From a virus, in the IMG/VR virus record IMGVR_UViG_3300046652_000023, positions 1 to 23,093 of that record: a stretch of DNA of 23,093 bases, one strand, 5' to 3'. Both the position numbers and the translations under genes were made by a program. Below the pieces are notes generated by a model. The model was not told the DNA's origin. It ran no database searches and worked only from the letters and a program-made list of their open reading frames with translations. Position 1 is the first letter of the stretch, and every line of letters starts with the position of its first letter. Of the stretch, positions 10,665 to 17,639 are shown in pieces.

Positions 10665-11143
10665 CGCGCGCCGTCCGCCCAGGCGACTGCCACGGCTAAG
10701 GCGGCCCACACGTCCTTGCTGACCCCGTAGAGCGGGCCAGGGGCGCGCTTGGTGCCCTTCGCATGCTCCCCGCCGAAGCGGTCGAGCAGGGCCTGGCGGA
10801 TGTTCGCGTCCTTGGCCTTGGCCGAGTGGCAGAGGTGCGTCTTGACGGCCAGGCGCCGGAGGTATTCGACCGGCGTGTCGCGGCAGGCGGCCTCCTCGAA
10901 TCGGCCGGCCCAGCGCACGGTCTGGAAGACCTCGCGGCCGACCGGCATGCCGTAGCTGGCAATCTCCTCGATGACGACGACGTCCGCCCACTTCGCCTGG
11001 CCGCGGTTGAGGCTGTCGAGCAGCTCCTGGTTCGGGGTGATGCCGAAGTTGTCGGGGCCCTCGATGCCGGGAGCCAGAGTCACCCAGGCCGACTGCTCGG
11101 AGCCGGGGTCAATCGCCAAGATGCGGTCAGATCCAGTCGTCAC
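10661..11143 (-). CDS. RuvC-like Holliday junction resolvase
   Basis: The product is 160 residues from GTG 11143, preceded by AGGAGG at six bases. Upstream codons in the same frame belong to the overlapping HNH gene region. The RNase H-fold signature is clear: ILAIDPGSEQSAW with D12, VVVIEEIAS with E59/E60, a conserved middle segment (VEYLRRLAVKTHLCHSAKAK), then D112 (KDANIRQAL) and D144/D157 in VSKDVWAALAVAVAWAD. It would cut four-way junctions or branched DNA before packaging, complementing the YqaJ/RecT pair. Its first 17 bases overlap the 3' end of the HNH gene. Confidence 0.88.
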   Translation of the reverse strand: MTTGSDRILAIDPGSEQSAWVTLAPGIEGPDNFGITPNQELLDSLNRGQAKWADVVVIEEIASYGMPVGREVFQTVRWAGRFEEAACRDTPVEYLRRLAVKTHLCHSAKAKDANIRQALLDRFGGEHAKGTKRAPGPLYGVSKDVWAALAVAVAWADGAR

Positions 11144-11573
11144 GTTCTGCCTCCTGCTCGATGGGCCAGCGCTGCCCGTTGACAATGCGCGTGATGTGCC
11201 CACGGCTCACTCCATACGTCTCGGCCAGACGGACGATGTTGCCGTGCAGCCCTGGCCGGCCCTCGGAGCGAATGGCTGCTATCTGATCGGCGGACAACCG
11301 GGCATGCCGATTTCGACTCCCCAACGTCGTACGCCCCTTGACGGCCGCATCTCGCATGTTGTCGAGCTGGGTGCCGAGGAATAGGTGCGTGATCTCGTAG
11401 CAGAGCGGCGTGTCGCAGTGGTGACAGACCATCTTTCCCGGCGGGATCGGGCCGTAGGCTTCCTCCCACGTCAGGCGATGGACTTTGACCATACGGCCGC
11501 CGTGCCAAGTCGCGCCATAGCCGCGATTGGTCGAGCCGGTCCAGAGGCGGCACGGCTCGGTGAGTTCAGTCAT
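11127..11573 (-). CDS. HNH homing-type endonuclease with C-terminal HTH
   Basis: The product is 148 residues; ATG 11573 overlaps the TGA of the zinc gene. The HNH_3 region is at about residues 8-80: CRLWTGSTNRGYG, VHRLTWEEAYGPIPPGKMVC, HHCDTPLC, then THLFLGTQLDNMRDAAVKGR. The usual N-P-x-H ahead of the last His reads YEITH, so one conserved Asn is replaced. An HTH module (ADQIAAIRSEG, then VRLAETYGVSRGHITRIVNG) follows. The protein ends RDDWI, the same last residues as the upstream zinc protein, because a 15-base sequence is duplicated at both ends of the gene. It resembles, but is not identical to, the HNH gene at 9175-9714. Confidence 0.88.
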   Translation of the reverse strand: MTELTEPCRLWTGSTNRGYGATWHGGRMVKVHRLTWEEAYGPIPPGKMVCHHCDTPLCYEITHLFLGTQLDNMRDAAVKGRTTLGSRNRHARLSADQIAAIRSEGRPGLHGNIVRLAETYGVSRGHITRIVNGQRWPIEQEAERDDWI

Positions 11574-11884
11574 ATCCAGTCGTCCTTCTCGGGTTGTCCA
11601 TCGGGTTGCGGGGTCTCGGATGGCTGCATCGGGCCGGGGCTACCTGGGCTCTCGCCGCGCTCGAGCAGCGGCCAGCGCCCCTTGACTCGGCTGCGGCAGG
11701 CTTCGACGTTCAGGCAGCGAGCGACCGCCTTGGGCGCCGAGTCGTCTCGGTACCAGGCCAGGCGCAGGGTGATGGTGCCGAACTCGTCGTGATGCCCACA
11801 GATCCCGCAGTCGGTCTGGAGGCGCAGCTCGAGCGGCACGTCGACGTCGGGCTCCGTGTCGAAGTACGGCTGTGACCGGCTCAC
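11570..11884 (-). CDS. Zinc-binding hypothetical protein
   Basis: The product is 104 residues from GTG 11884, which overlaps the previous stop (GTGA). A Cys/His cluster CGICGHHDEFGTITLRLAWY (about 26-45) plus a distal CLNVEACRSR (about 57-66) form a plausible four-Cys zinc ribbon. The C-terminal third is Pro/Gly/Ser-rich and ends KDDWI. Before the HNH gene arrived it probably overlapped the resolvase gene directly. Function unknown; zinc-ribbon proteins of this kind often bind DNA. Confidence 0.65.
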   Translation of the reverse strand: MSRSQPYFDTEPDVDVPLELRLQTDCGICGHHDEFGTITLRLAWYRDDSAPKAVARCLNVEACRSRVKGRWPLLERGESPGSPGPMQPSETPQPDGQPEKDDWI

Positions 11885-12573
11885 GTCTCGCCTGCCCAGT
11901 CGTCGATCGTCTCAGGCTCGGGTCTGGGCAGCAGTTCGCCGAGTCGCTGTAGGGTGCGTCGGTCCGCCTCGGGACTCCCTCGCTCCAGCTGGCGCGGGCT
12001 AGTGCCGTTGGCCCGCGGGTTCTCGCCGTTCTCCCGTCGCGACCTTGGTCGAGCCCCCGCTTGCGGGGGTTTGGGGGTAGTAGATTCGGATTCGGTCGGG
12101 TCGGGTCGGGGGCTAGCCCCGGGTGCTAGGGTTTTGCTTGAAGCACTCTCTAGCACGGTGCTAGGCGTTTGCTTGGCTGGCACATCGCTAGCACCGTGCT
12201 TGGATTGTGCTAGGTTTCGTGCTCGGGAGAGGCCCCCAAGGCGCCCGGCTTCCGCCTTCTTCTTTCGCTCGGCGTGGACCTCAGACCGGCTCTTGTTGTG
12301 CGCCAAGAAGTCGTGCAAGCGGTAGCCGATGCGGCATCGCTCGAAAAGTCCAGCGCGGAATCCCGGAGCGATTAGGAGCAGCGCCTCGATCTCCTCGGGC
12401 CTGGCATCGAGGGCTATCAGGGCCGCTTCGGAGAGCTTGCCGTCGGTCAGGTAGCGGTTCGAGTAGCTGACCGCGCGCCAGTAGAGCCCGCAGGCGGCGT
12501 TCCGGGTCTTGGCCGGCATGTTCTTGACCTTCGGGTGGTCGTAGAAGTCGTCGTCGACGCGGCCCCAGGGCAT
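11881..12573 (-). CDS. Replication initiation/helicase-loader type protein; gene contains the probable origin
   Basis: The product is 230 residues; ATG 12573 overlaps the upstream TGA. The N-terminal ~110 residues resemble phage replisome-organiser DNA-binding domains. They start PWGRVDDDFYDHPKVKNM, followed by a helical LYWRAVSYSNRYLTDGKLSE and RIGYRLHDFLAHNKSRSEVH. From about residue 115 to 200 the protein is a low-complexity Ser/Pro/Lys/Ala linker. Its DNA is an array of repeats and palindromes (12061-12222). A short acidic C-terminus (ELLPRPEPETIDDWAGET) may contact a helicase. The layout matches lambda O and similar initiators, whose genes carry their own origin. The family assignment is moderate; the internal repeats strengthen it. 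Confidence 0.68.
   Translation of the reverse strand: MPWGRVDDDFYDHPKVKNMPAKTRNAACGLYWRAVSYSNRYLTDGKLSEAALIALDARPEEIEALLLIAPGFRAGLFERCRIGYRLHDFLAHNKSRSEVHAERKKKAEAGRLGGLSRARNLAQSKHGASDVPAKQTPSTVLESASSKTLAPGASPRPDPTESESTTPKPPQAGARPRSRRENGENPRANGTSPRQLERGSPEADRRTLQRLGELLPRPEPETIDDWAGET
12109..12222. repeat. ori: Iteron array: probable phage replication origin
   Basis: Direct repeats of GTGCTAGG occur at 12123-12130, 12158-12165 and 12207-12214, with a one-base variant (GTGCTTGG) at 12196-12203. The first two extend to 18 bases with 16 identical (GTGCTAGG-N2-TTTGCTTG). Inverted copies CTAGCAC at 12150-12156 and 12188-12194 face neighbouring repeats to make near-perfect palindromes (CTAGCAC-G-GTGCTAG at 12150-12164; CTAGCAC-C-GTGCTtG at 12188-12202). 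A 12-base palindrome GGGGCTAGCCCC lies at 12109-12120. The repeats are out of codon phase and fall in a linker, so protein sequence does not explain them. Local GC is lower than in the flanks. Confidence 0.75.
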
Positions 12574-13781: not shown

Positions 13782-14150
13782 TCATGGCAGGTACTCGAAC
13801 TCGATCCGGTTGACGAACCAGGCGCGCGTGACACCCGCGGAGCGGTTGGCCTTGCAGAACATCGCTACGAACTCAGGTCCGGTCATGCCGGGGAAACCCT
13901 CGCGGGCCGTCTCGGCAACAGCCTCGGCAGTCGTCTTCAATTCCAACAGGCCGAGTCGCTCCGCCCTCCGCGACACCACCCGAATCAGGCAGATCGGCTT
14001 GACGTGCTCGCCCTTCCGCAGCCCCTGTGCCTTCTCGACGGCTTGCAGGACCGTGCCGGGCTTGAGGTCCCACCAGCCCAGGCGGCGCGTGACGGTCTTC
14101 TCGTGACGGCGCACCGCCTCAGTGGTCATTGAGAAGCTCATGTTCCTCAT
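13782..14150 (-). CDS. ASCH-domain-like protein
   Basis: The product is 122 residues; ATG 14150 overlaps the upstream TGA. The pattern MSFSMTTEAVRRHEKTVTRR, then LGWWDLKPGTVLQAVEKAQG, then PICLIRVVSRRAERL follows ASCH (PUA-like) domains widespread in phages. In these, a conserved K-T-x-T-R near the start, a G/W-containing turn and an I-x-V-strand define an RNA- or modified-nucleotide-binding fold. The C-terminal half (FPGMTGPEFVAMFCKANRSA) fits the family's usual G-x-x-x-x-F-V/I-x-M-F end. A role in RNA binding or nucleotide hydrolysis is possible but not shown. Confidence 0.7.
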   Translation of the reverse strand: MRNMSFSMTTEAVRRHEKTVTRRLGWWDLKPGTVLQAVEKAQGLRKGEHVKPICLIRVVSRRAERLGLLELKTTAEAVAETAREGFPGMTGPEFVAMFCKANRSAGVTRAWFVNRIEFEYLP

Positions 14151-14722
14151 GCCACGCCCCGACCCGCCGGCTCAACCCAGGGCAGCCCGAGCGCCTCGTA
14201 CACGCTCTCCTCGGTCGGCGTCGGGATCGTCTTGCAGGCGCAGTCAGAGCGCCCGGGGATGCCCAGGCCGTTGTGCAGGTGGCTGCCGACGACATGCAGC
14301 CCGCGCCGGCGAGCCTCGGTGACGAGCCACTGGCTGTAGTCGGCCGGCCCGGTCCGGATCAGCAGGATCAGGCCCCAGGATTCCGGCGTGGTGATGAAGA
14401 GGTCCACCTGCATCCCCGAGCGGACGTGGCGCAGCTTGACGTAGCGATCGCCGCCGGACAGCCGCTCGAGTTCGCCCGCCGCCTCTTCGCGCGCCAAGAC
14501 GGCGGAGAGCATGGAGACGCGGCTCGTGTCGCCCCACAGGCTCGACGGCTCTTCGCGGAATCGCGGGATGGCCACGAGCTCGATGTCGCCCACGTCGGTC
14601 GTGCCGCGCCGGATCGACCCGGCGATGGTGAGGCGTTCGCAGTGCGGATCCAGCTGGCCCCAGATAGCGTTGGCGTGATGCCGGGCCTCGGCGAGCGGGA
14701 GGCGCGTGGCGGTGGTGCTCAT
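14147..14722 (-). CDS. Stand-alone DNA polymerase X core (nucleotidyltransferase palm plus thumb)
   Basis: The product is 191 residues; ATG 14722 overlaps the upstream stop. The pol-beta-type palm is complete: TIAGSIRRGTTDVGDIELVA supplies the GS nucleotide-binding pair (35-36) and carboxylates D46 and E48, and GMQVDLFITTPESWG supplies D107. The thumb-like region RTGPADYSQWLVTEARRRGL and the final PTEESVYEALGLPWVEPAGR match the C-terminal thumb of bacterial/archaeal PolX. The 8-kDa lyase domain and PHP domain of cellular PolX are missing. One of the usual two Asp in the first motif is Glu. It probably fills gaps or adds nucleotides in repair or recombination; tRNA-type transfer is less likely because the thumb is PolX-like. 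Confidence 0.85.
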   Translation of the reverse strand: MSTTATRLPLAEARHHANAIWGQLDPHCERLTIAGSIRRGTTDVGDIELVAIPRFREEPSSLWGDTSRVSMLSAVLAREEAAGELERLSGGDRYVKLRHVRSGMQVDLFITTPESWGLILLIRTGPADYSQWLVTEARRRGLHVVGSHLHNGLGIPGRSDCACKTIPTPTEESVYEALGLPWVEPAGRGVA

Positions 14723-15738: not shown

Positions 15739-16656
15739 CTATGCGAGCCCCATCTCGACCGCCAGCGCGAGCCAGTCGGCCGGCAGCAGTTCGGATGGCT
15801 TGGTGCGCTCGCCTTGCGTGATGCGTGCGACGGCCGCGCGGTCGACGTCGGCGAGCTTCTTGTCGATCGTGCCGAGGCGCCGCACGAACTCCTCGCGCGA
15901 CATGCCGGCCGGCTGCTCGGGCTCTGGGTCGGTGAAGTCAGCCTCGATCACGCCATCGGCGTCGACTGGCGCGCCGGAGTCGGTGACGGCAACGGGCTCA
16001 GCCTTCGCCGCGAAGGTGTCCTCAGTGGCCTTGCGCCGCATGGCGACACGTTCACGGGCTGTCGGTTGCGGTACGACCGGAGCCGAGGTGCCCCGGTCCG
16101 CCTGCGTCATCTCTTCGGTGGTGTAGAGGTCGGCACCGATGCCGTGCTTGGCGTCCGGGTCGTAGGGGAAGGCTTTGCGAAGCGCGAGCGCCTCGGCCAC
16201 CTTGGCGAGCATCACCCGCGGCATCCGCTGCCACATGAAGTCGTTGTCCTGGGGCTTGTACTCGTCCCAATAGGCCGTGGCCGAGATCGGATGCTCGACA
16301 CCCTTGCGGTGTACGCGCACCACGCAGAACTCGGGATGCCCGAAGGGCTTCTCGATCCAGGGCCCGAATTCCGGCTCGTCCTGGCCGTCGTACATGCCGG
16401 TCCGGGCGGCGATCGAGCGATAGCCGTCGATCCCGGTCTGGAAGGTGACGCGGCCCTTGCGCTTGACGGCATAGACCTGCTTGGCGAACGGGTCGAGCCC
16501 CGAGCGGGCCGCCACCATCGCGAAGAGCTTGAGCTCGTCATCGGACAGATCCGGCGCGAGCACGTTCTTGACGGTCTGGAGCCCACGCAGGATGGTCGCC
16601 GAAGTCATCTCGCCGCCGCTCGATGGCAGCGCGAGAGCGGTTGTCTGGTCGGTCAC
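15739..16656 (-). CDS. bet: RecT/Bet-family single-strand annealing protein
   Basis: The product is 305 residues; GTG 16656 overlaps the exonuclease TGA. It binds single-stranded DNA and anneals complementary strands after resection by the neighbouring exonuclease. The family core is clear: LSDDELKLFAMVAARSGLDP, FAKQVYAVKR, VTFQTGIDGYRSIAARTGMY, PEFGPWIEKP, ATAYWDEYKPQ, and WQRMPRVMLAKVAEALALRK followed by AFP. The C-terminal ~90 residues are acidic and variable (IEADFTDPEPEQ), as is usual for a region that contacts host SSB. Length and motif order are typical of Bet proteins. Confidence 0.93.
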   Translation of the reverse strand: MTDQTTALALPSSGGEMTSATILRGLQTVKNVLAPDLSDDELKLFAMVAARSGLDPFAKQVYAVKRKGRVTFQTGIDGYRSIAARTGMYDGQDEPEFGPWIEKPFGHPEFCVVRVHRKGVEHPISATAYWDEYKPQDNDFMWQRMPRVMLAKVAEALALRKAFPYDPDAKHGIGADLYTTEEMTQADRGTSAPVVPQPTARERVAMRRKATEDTFAAKAEPVAVTDSGAPVDADGVIEADFTDPEPEQPAGMSREEFVRRLGTIDKKLADVDRAAVARITQGERTKPSELLPADWLALAVEMGLA

Positions 16657-17639
16657 GATGCACTCTCCTTGTAGACAGTCCGCAGGACGCGAGCGCCCCC
16701 GGAGGTCTCGGAATGGATGGACTGCAGCGTGTCGAGCGTCTCTTCCGAGGCACCCTGCTGCACCAGGAGTTGGCGGTACGAGTTGGCGACCGCCGGCCAG
16801 TTGATCCGCAGGCTGTCCTTGTTCTTGCGATAGGTGAAGCAGCCCTCGACGCCTGCCGCGTCGCCAAGCAGGGCCCGGATGGCGTTGGAGATCGAGCCCT
16901 CGGCATCCTCTGCGGCCTTGGCCGCGGCCTTGGCGGCGACGAGCTGGCGGGCCAGGTCCACGAACTCGGGGGCGGAGGGCAGCATCGTGCCGTCGTCCGC
17001 CGGGTGCAGCCTGACCAGCGCACGGCGGGTCGATTCGCTGCCATCGATGGGCGGGCGTGTCTTGGCCTGGACGTAGCCCCAGAACTCGCGGGCCAGGTAG
17101 AGCAGGTCAGCGATCCAGGCATCGTCGCGCGGGACCTCGAGCACATGCGGACTGGACCCGTAGCCGAGCACGCCGACGTCGACGACCTCGTAGCCCCCGA
17201 CGTACATCTGCCACTGGCACTGAACCTGTACGTCGCCCGGGACAGCGGAGAAGTCGCCCCAGCGCGGACTACGGGTGTTCTTCAGCTCGACAGCGCGCCG
17301 CTCGCCCTTGACCGCAGACTCGCGGTCGATCGAGGCGCGGGCAACCGGCCATTCACGGCTCTGGAGCATCCGGTTGACGCGGCGCAACGGCCGGCCGGTT
17401 TCCTCGGTGTAGAGCTGCGCGATGACCGGCTCCATGAGGTGGCCGACGCGGAAGAGCTTGGCTGTCTGCTCGTCGATCGGCTCCGGCTCCATCAGGCCAG
17501 CCTTCACGGCCCAGAGCGCGAGCAGGCCATCCTTCTCGCCGACGACGATTGGCATGTCCGAAGCGCCCAGGCCGTTGACGCGCTCGGCCTCCCACTCGGG
17601 GCTGCCTTGGCGAACAGCAAGAGCGGTAGGTGCGTTCAC
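16653..17639 (-). CDS. YqaJ/lambda-exonuclease-type recombinase nuclease
   Basis: The product is 328 residues; GTG 17639 overlaps the upstream TGA. It degrades one strand of duplex DNA to feed the annealase encoded immediately downstream. The YqaJ motifs are present: WEAERVNGLGASDMPIVVGE (helix and ASD), GHLMEPVIAQLY with E70, VARASIDRE with D105, VELKNTR giving E118-x-K120, and GDVQVQCQWQMYVGG with the conserved Gln residues. The C-terminal region is charged and helical. Together with Bet this makes a classical exo/SSAP pair. Confidence 0.93.
   Translation of the reverse strand: MNAPTALAVRQGSPEWEAERVNGLGASDMPIVVGEKDGLLALWAVKAGLMEPEPIDEQTAKLFRVGHLMEPVIAQLYTEETGRPLRRVNRMLQSREWPVARASIDRESAVKGERRAVELKNTRSPRWGDFSAVPGDVQVQCQWQMYVGGYEVVDVGVLGYGSSPHVLEVPRDDAWIADLLYLAREFWGYVQAKTRPPIDGSESTRRALVRLHPADDGTMLPSAPEFVDLARQLVAAKAAAKAAEDAEGSISNAIRALLGDAAGVEGCFTYRKNKDSLRINWPAVANSYRQLLVQQGASEETLDTLQSIHSETSGGARVLRTVYKESAS

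Follow-up and report, generated by a model that had tools for sequence, protein, structure and literature searches.

A putative theta-type replication origin inside the initiator gene of a phage, with a layout shared by a family of relatives

Introduction

Intragenic replication origins are already known from lambda O and from the RepA_N plasmids, the latter being plasmids of low-GC Firmicutes. In lambda, the origin lies within the initiator gene, behind the part that encodes the DNA-binding domain, and comprises four iterons of 18 bp, spaced at roughly 20-24 bp and located at +349 to +433 of O, together with an AT-rich tract. The order there is repeats first and then a tract that is easily opened (PMC7466680). 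In RepA_N plasmids, the origin sits in the middle of rep, over a linker of the encoded protein that is not needed as a peptide; in pSK41, the N-terminal winged helix of Rep binds Rep boxes placed centrally in the gene (PMC5703833). The rep gene of the lactococcal phage TP901-1 also carries repeated DNA in its middle, with a 15-bp lag in the sequence. For the mycobacteriophage Miko, a representative of the cluster A prophage plasmids, repA has been found to be both required and sufficient for replication and the origin is presumed to lie in or beside repA, and no repeats were reported between the tail genes and parS-L (PMC7157519).

Here we analysed a viral DNA stretch of 23,093 nt (IMG/VR record IMGVR_UViG_3300046652_000023, positions 1 to 23,093; hereafter the window), in which a first-pass annotation made from the letters alone had read 12061-12222 as an iteron-like origin embedded in a replication gene. 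We find that the segment 12040-12213 is very probably a theta-type phage origin located inside its own initiator gene, with the encoded protein reading the repeats. By sequence, this initiator belongs neither to the lambda O group nor to RepA_N.

Results

The initiator combines a winged helix and a disordered linker, both predicted

The gene occupies 11881-12573 on the minus strand and encodes a protein of 230 aa (PHROG 2447 / 3926), which matches PHROG 2447, 'replication initiation protein', over residues 1-188 with an E value of 1.3e-26. Codons 1-120 (12214-12573, minus strand) encode the most conserved part, a predicted winged-helix DNA-binding domain with a long helix. The AlphaFold2 model shows winged-helix-like elements and one long helix, and most of residues 11-120 score above 90 in pLDDT. 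Codons 121-200 (11974-12213, minus strand) encode a low-complexity linker that is predicted to be disordered, with pLDDT of about 50 over residues 131-200, and this linker coincides with the repeat region, as the first-pass annotation had placed it.

A Foldseek search with the predicted structure of the window protein returned nothing at E<=0.001. In a second look, the folds 5kbj and 4pt7, which we take to be RepA_N proteins, matched with Z 6.2 and an rmsd of 2.6-2.8 over 75-78 residues, a level that unrelated winged helices also reach; the likeness of the predicted fold to these two solved replication initiators is suggestive, not diagnostic. The mid-gene position and the predicted linker disorder would fit the RepA_N arrangement. 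The Pfam family RepA_N (PF06970) was not matched by the window protein and was absent among the 25 families listed for 63 family members at E<=1. Likewise, the window protein did not match the O-like PHROGs (phrog_277 and phrog_391), which were matched by 5 of the 63 relatives. Pfam, NCBIfam and PDB sequence searches with the initiator family gave no meaningful match.

TP901-1 Rep differs in that it belongs largely to other PHROG families, is AT-rich and contains no 4-9-mer tandem run of at least 13 nt in its gene. Miko RepA (PHROG 35571) was considered as a family member and rejected, as profile comparison shows no detectable homology.

Repeats, a tandem and a hairpin follow one another within the gene

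Read in the direction of the gene, about ten half-sites, many of them 11 bp apart, are followed by a CCCGA tandem, an AT-richer segment and a hairpin. The iteron array, supported by phasing and synonymous-shuffle tests, spans 12111-12213 on the minus strand (+361 to +463 of the gene) and is built from half-sites of the [CGT][TA]AGCA type. On the minus strand these are CTAGCAC at 12207-12213, 12158-12164 and 12123-12129; CAAGCA at 12197-12202, 12170-12175 and 12135-12140; and the variants CTAGCG at 12186-12191, CTAGAG at 12148-12153 and CTAGCC at 12111-12116. Opposite-strand copies lie at 12188-12194, 12150-12156 and 12140-12146. Written on the plus strand, the array contains the unit GTGCTAGG three times exactly (12123-12130, 12158-12165 and 12207-12214), its one-base variant GTGCTTGG (12196-12203) and inverted CTAGCAC at 12150-12156 and 12188-12194. 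The palindrome GGGGCTAGCCCC (12109-12120) closes the array; it is kept in the relative L003 (GGGGCTAGCCCC) and partly in L004.

The three exact units, the variant, the two inverted copies and the 12-base palindrome are thus all where the first-pass annotation had seen them. Its list had missed the CAAGCA copies, the CCCGA tandem and the hairpin and had left the minus strand unstated, and its interval does contain the repeats, with 12040-12213 as the more useful span.

The clustering is evident at the level of the whole window. CTAGCAC occurs six times against 1.40 expected, a count reached in 1 of 100 dinucleotide shuffles, and five of the six copies, counting both strands, are packed into 91 bp. 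The core [CGT][TA]AGCA or its reverse reaches nine per 130 nt in the array and at most two per 130 nt anywhere in the window outside 11900-12350. Several half-sites are spaced by 11 bp (gene coordinates 361/372/383, 399/410/421 and 434/445). The 11/12-bp phasing gives p=0.07 in the window alone, and the phasing claim therefore rests on the relatives described below.

Behind the array, the tandem CCCGACCCGACCCGACC (12094-12110, minus strand, which is the gene strand) consists of CCCGA units, and no other 5-7-mer tandem in the window is as long. It is followed by an AT-richer segment, GAATCCGAATCTACTA (12078-12093, minus strand), a candidate melting site. The AT-richness of the origin region is not striking; across the family, the trend is 48% AT in the AT-richer part versus 38% in the part encoding the DNA-binding domain. 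Further on the minus strand are a C-run direct repeat, CTACCCCCAAACCCCC (12065-12080), found with changed spacer letters in L002 and L003; the hairpin CCCCCGCAAGCGGGGG (12054-12069), for which L003 and L004 have a stem of other letters at the same place; and a second small stem, CGACCAAGGTCG (12040-12051), with CGACCAAGGTC common to L002. The folding z-score of the window hairpin is not significant, and hence the stem-loop is argued from the statistics of the family. Cumulative GC skew, a check proposed in the first-pass annotation, shows no turn at 12.1 kb, where the repeats lie, and has low power in a 23-kb fragment.

As that annotation had remarked, the repeats are unlike the lambda iteron. 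In place of lambda's long iterons and AT-rich tract, the window shows short half-sites with a spacing of 11-12 bp, followed by a GC-containing tandem and then a stem-loop.

The layout is kept in relatives and the letters vary by clade

Relatives were gathered by wider alignments and from phage records, giving 257 loci, or 213 after removal of near-duplicates. A scan of genome contigs yielded 12 loci, which come from Streptomyces, Sphaerisporangium and several MAGs. The initiator gene is present in 395 phage records, and PHROG 2447 was matched by all 63 family members scanned. Where hosts are known, the relatives are mostly actinobacterial phages. The contig of the relative L163 matches the window in length (23,093 bp), apparently by coincidence, as a 60-base probe from it was absent from the window.

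Across the 213 non-redundant relatives, we observed the same location behind the winged-helix domain with letters that vary by clade. Scores for repeats, tandem and hairpin all peak 300-600 nt past the gene start and are flat elsewhere within ±1.5 kb. In L002, L003 and L004, whose proteins share 64%, 53% and 46% overall identity with the window protein, the repeats lie at the same place, and each of the three has a CCCGT tandem behind them; the repeat core of L002 has drifted to GAAGCA, and the stem letters of the hairpin after the tandem are identical in L002 and different in L003 and L004.

Repeat spacing was compared among the relatives, as the first-pass annotation had suggested. Counting identical 5-mers in the 125 nt before the tandem, we found 3.76 repeated 5-mers per locus at lag 11 versus 0.18 in the control and 3.52 versus 0.49 at lag 12, that is, 7-21-fold above control, with clear harmonics at lags of 22-24, 33-36 and 44-48. 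An exact tandem, defined as a run of a 4-9-mer of at least 13 nt, was found in 190 of 213 loci. Nearly all units are 5- or 6-mers (ACCCG in 51 loci, ACAGAG in 30, CCCGT in 19, AACCCC in 13 and many others). Units of 5 and 6 nt yield different peptides, so the common property is the DNA repetition. The tandem has a strand bias, with 72% A+C on the gene strand. Stem-loops of at least 7 bp occur just after the tandem in 34% of loci, compared with 1.8% in shuffled sequence and 2.8% elsewhere; they often abut the tandem, and their commonest loops are TAAC, TGAC and TAC. G-quadruplex-type motifs lie near the tandem on the strand opposite the gene in 52% of relatives, compared with 0.6% elsewhere and 1.6% for the gene strand. 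The strict motif is absent from the window and is not expected in the ACAGAG clade.

Alternatively, the repeats could be operators that let the protein repress or adjust the operon in which it is encoded. A winged-helix protein encoded next to repeats could indeed autoregulate, and the inverted CTAGCAC/GTGCTAG pairs are operator-like. However, the array is found at 350-460 nt within the gene, away from the promoter, and arrays in the family are nearly always followed by the tandem and often by a stem-loop. Several cultured relatives, moreover, encode a helicase loader, DnaB or a helicase immediately downstream of the initiator gene or after one intervening gene (helicase loader and DnaB in Blett, DnaB in 1191A and in Howe, a helicase in Schmidt). 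We therefore regard an operator in place of an origin as improbable, although autoregulation could exist alongside origin function.

The repeat region is kept as DNA

In the window, the repeat copies occupy all three codon phases, which agrees with the first-pass description of repeats out of codon phase. Synonymous shuffling with protein and codon usage fixed left a mean of 0.25 CTAGCAC copies, versus five in the real gene (p=2e-4). Over 185 coding loci, phased matches amounted to 7.31 in the real sequences versus a mean of 1.84 in synonymous shuffles; 111 of the 185 loci reached p<0.05 and 60 reached p<=0.005.

In some relatives the elements lie beyond the reading frame altogether. The ORF of Anatole (L020) ends early, and GGGTAAGCAA repeats followed by a CCCGTA tandem stand in non-coding DNA; L017 carries ATGGCAA repeats and a CCCCAA tandem past an early ORF stop; and Arthrobacter phage ArV1 has non-coding 12-mers of the GCGATCACAAAA type behind a 176-codon ORF. 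Codon-level conservation among the closest pairs was not consistently higher in the origin part (74% for the window and L002, 61-62% for the other two pairs). Given the synonymous shuffles and the relatives whose ORFs stop before the repeats, the sequences indicate that it is the DNA of this region, not the peptide, that is maintained.

The same results bear on the idea that the repeats arose at the peptide level or by slippage in a low-complexity linker and have no function as DNA. The linker is predicted to be disordered, and tandem 5-6-mers arise easily by slippage; yet the synonymous shuffles, the mixed codon phases, the non-coding cases and the sharp single location in 213 genes make this explanation very improbable.

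Repeat letters follow the N-terminal domain

In pairwise comparisons, the more alike two N-terminal domains are, the more alike their repeats, and the rise is steep. Where the DNA-binding domains were similar and the C-terminal domains different (199 pairs), mean repeat similarity was 0.39, whereas pairs with similar C-terminal and different DNA-binding domains (n=15) had 0.04, about background. Since the repeats sit between the two parts, plain linkage would favour neither side. The link to the DNA-binding domain could be partly physical linkage, but the C-terminal part is equally close. As far as sequence comparison goes, the evidence that the repeat letters follow the N-terminal and not the C-terminal domain is strong, not conclusive, the pairs being phylogenetically non-independent.

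This dependence also weighs against a parS-like partition or centromere site bound by ParB. Such sites can be repetitive, as in the mycobacteriophage RedRock, whose parS consists of eight direct repeats of an 8-bp motif (PMC7157519). Here, however, the repeat letters track a domain of the very gene that bears them, and no ParA or ParB family match was found among the 20 window ORFs scanned, a subset of all ORFs; a partition site is among the least probable explanations.

Loss of the repeats with retention of the protein, which the first-pass annotation had named as evidence against an origin, is rare. Among 212 relatives with enough sequence, L019 and L140 are the only two without a tandem or phased repeats above the background median, and a Streptomyces plasmid homologue also lacks repeats. 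The sequences suggest that L019 and L140 hold broken or repurposed genes. Read by eye, the initiator gene of L019 (4280-4500) is truncated by an apparent transposon-type (TnpB-like) gene. In L140 (2501-3200), also read by eye, the winged helix is fused to an apparent HNH-type domain without origin repeats, and a second copy of the domain (MPWVKLDDEFF...) directly follows the fusion.

Discussion

The origin reading rests on the initiator family, a position like that in lambda O, the family-wide layout, DNA-level selection and the link to the N-terminal domain, and it agrees with what the first-pass annotation had proposed. The initiator would bind the half-sites through its winged helix, one monomer per helical turn, and the array would thereby wrap or bend the DNA. 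Strand opening may take place at the tandem or the AT-richer segment, and the exposed single strand of the tandem could be a landing site for the initiator or the helicase, with the hairpin assisting in fixing the site of priming or opening. Helicase loading and priming would follow, the variable C-terminus recruiting a helicase loader or DnaB, and the disordered linker would tolerate the constraint imposed on the DNA. For binding, opening and loading, this scheme is modelled on lambda O and pSK41 Rep (PMC7466680, PMC5703833). A DnaB_C search of the window and of five relative records, L002-L004 among them, found none; as the window encodes no DnaB, a host helicase is presumed.

We also consider, tentatively and with more doubt than confidence, that the tandem and stem-loop may form an undescribed origin module, maintained as a layout across hundreds of phages while its letters change, in which the G/T-rich strand of 5-6-mers, often G-quadruplex-capable, would give the initiator or helicase a single-stranded register, replacing a plain AT-rich tract. 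That the repeats work as mRNA structure (an attenuator, terminator or regulatory RNA) is as improbable as a partition site: in single-stranded form, the iteron region of the window does fold unusually well, from two 13-bp inverted arms (z -5.4), but it has no Rfam match, z falls below -2 there in only 39% of the relatives sampled, and direct phasing at 11/12 bp is foreign to RNA hairpins. A tRNA scan of the window found nothing.

The combination of half-sites 11-12 bp apart, a strand-biased tandem, a stem-loop and free letters was not found described in the open-licence literature. The nearest published statement is a suggestion that the mycobacteriophage RepA replicons, whose RepA is not detectably homologous, have their origin in or beside repA (PMC7157519). 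In the open papers searched, we also found no mapping of replication origins for these actinobacterial phages, and the relatives are usually annotated as 'hypothetical protein' or 'replication initiation protein'. The three-part signature at a fixed place allows an origin to be predicted in many of the 395 phage records, including laboratory phages of Mycobacterium smegmatis (Fruitloop), Gordonia terrae, Arthrobacter and Propionibacterium freudenreichii, and these predictions are now testable in cultured phages. The family further offers candidate phage-derived replicons and a naturally occurring collection of DNA-binding domains, each paired with its target repeats, from which recognition rules might be derived, and a tandem whose layout is conserved while its letters are free raises the question of how GC-rich origins open.

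Several neighbouring features of the window were also observed. At 14147-14722 (minus strand) lies a gene for a small protein with matches to the palm and thumb of DNA polymerase beta (PF14792, PF14791), which is unusual in an early phage operon. Upstream of the initiator, 15739-17639 (minus strand) encodes a pair consisting of a RecT-like annealing protein and a RecE/YqaJ-like exonuclease. The initiator itself ends in IDDWAGET (11881-11900), and the next two genes (ends at 11570-11590 and 11127-11145, minus strand) both end in DDWI; similar DEWI/DDWI tails occur on the initiator and on one adjacent ORF of L003 and L004. This common acidic-tryptophan C-terminal tail is perhaps a docking tag for a shared partner.
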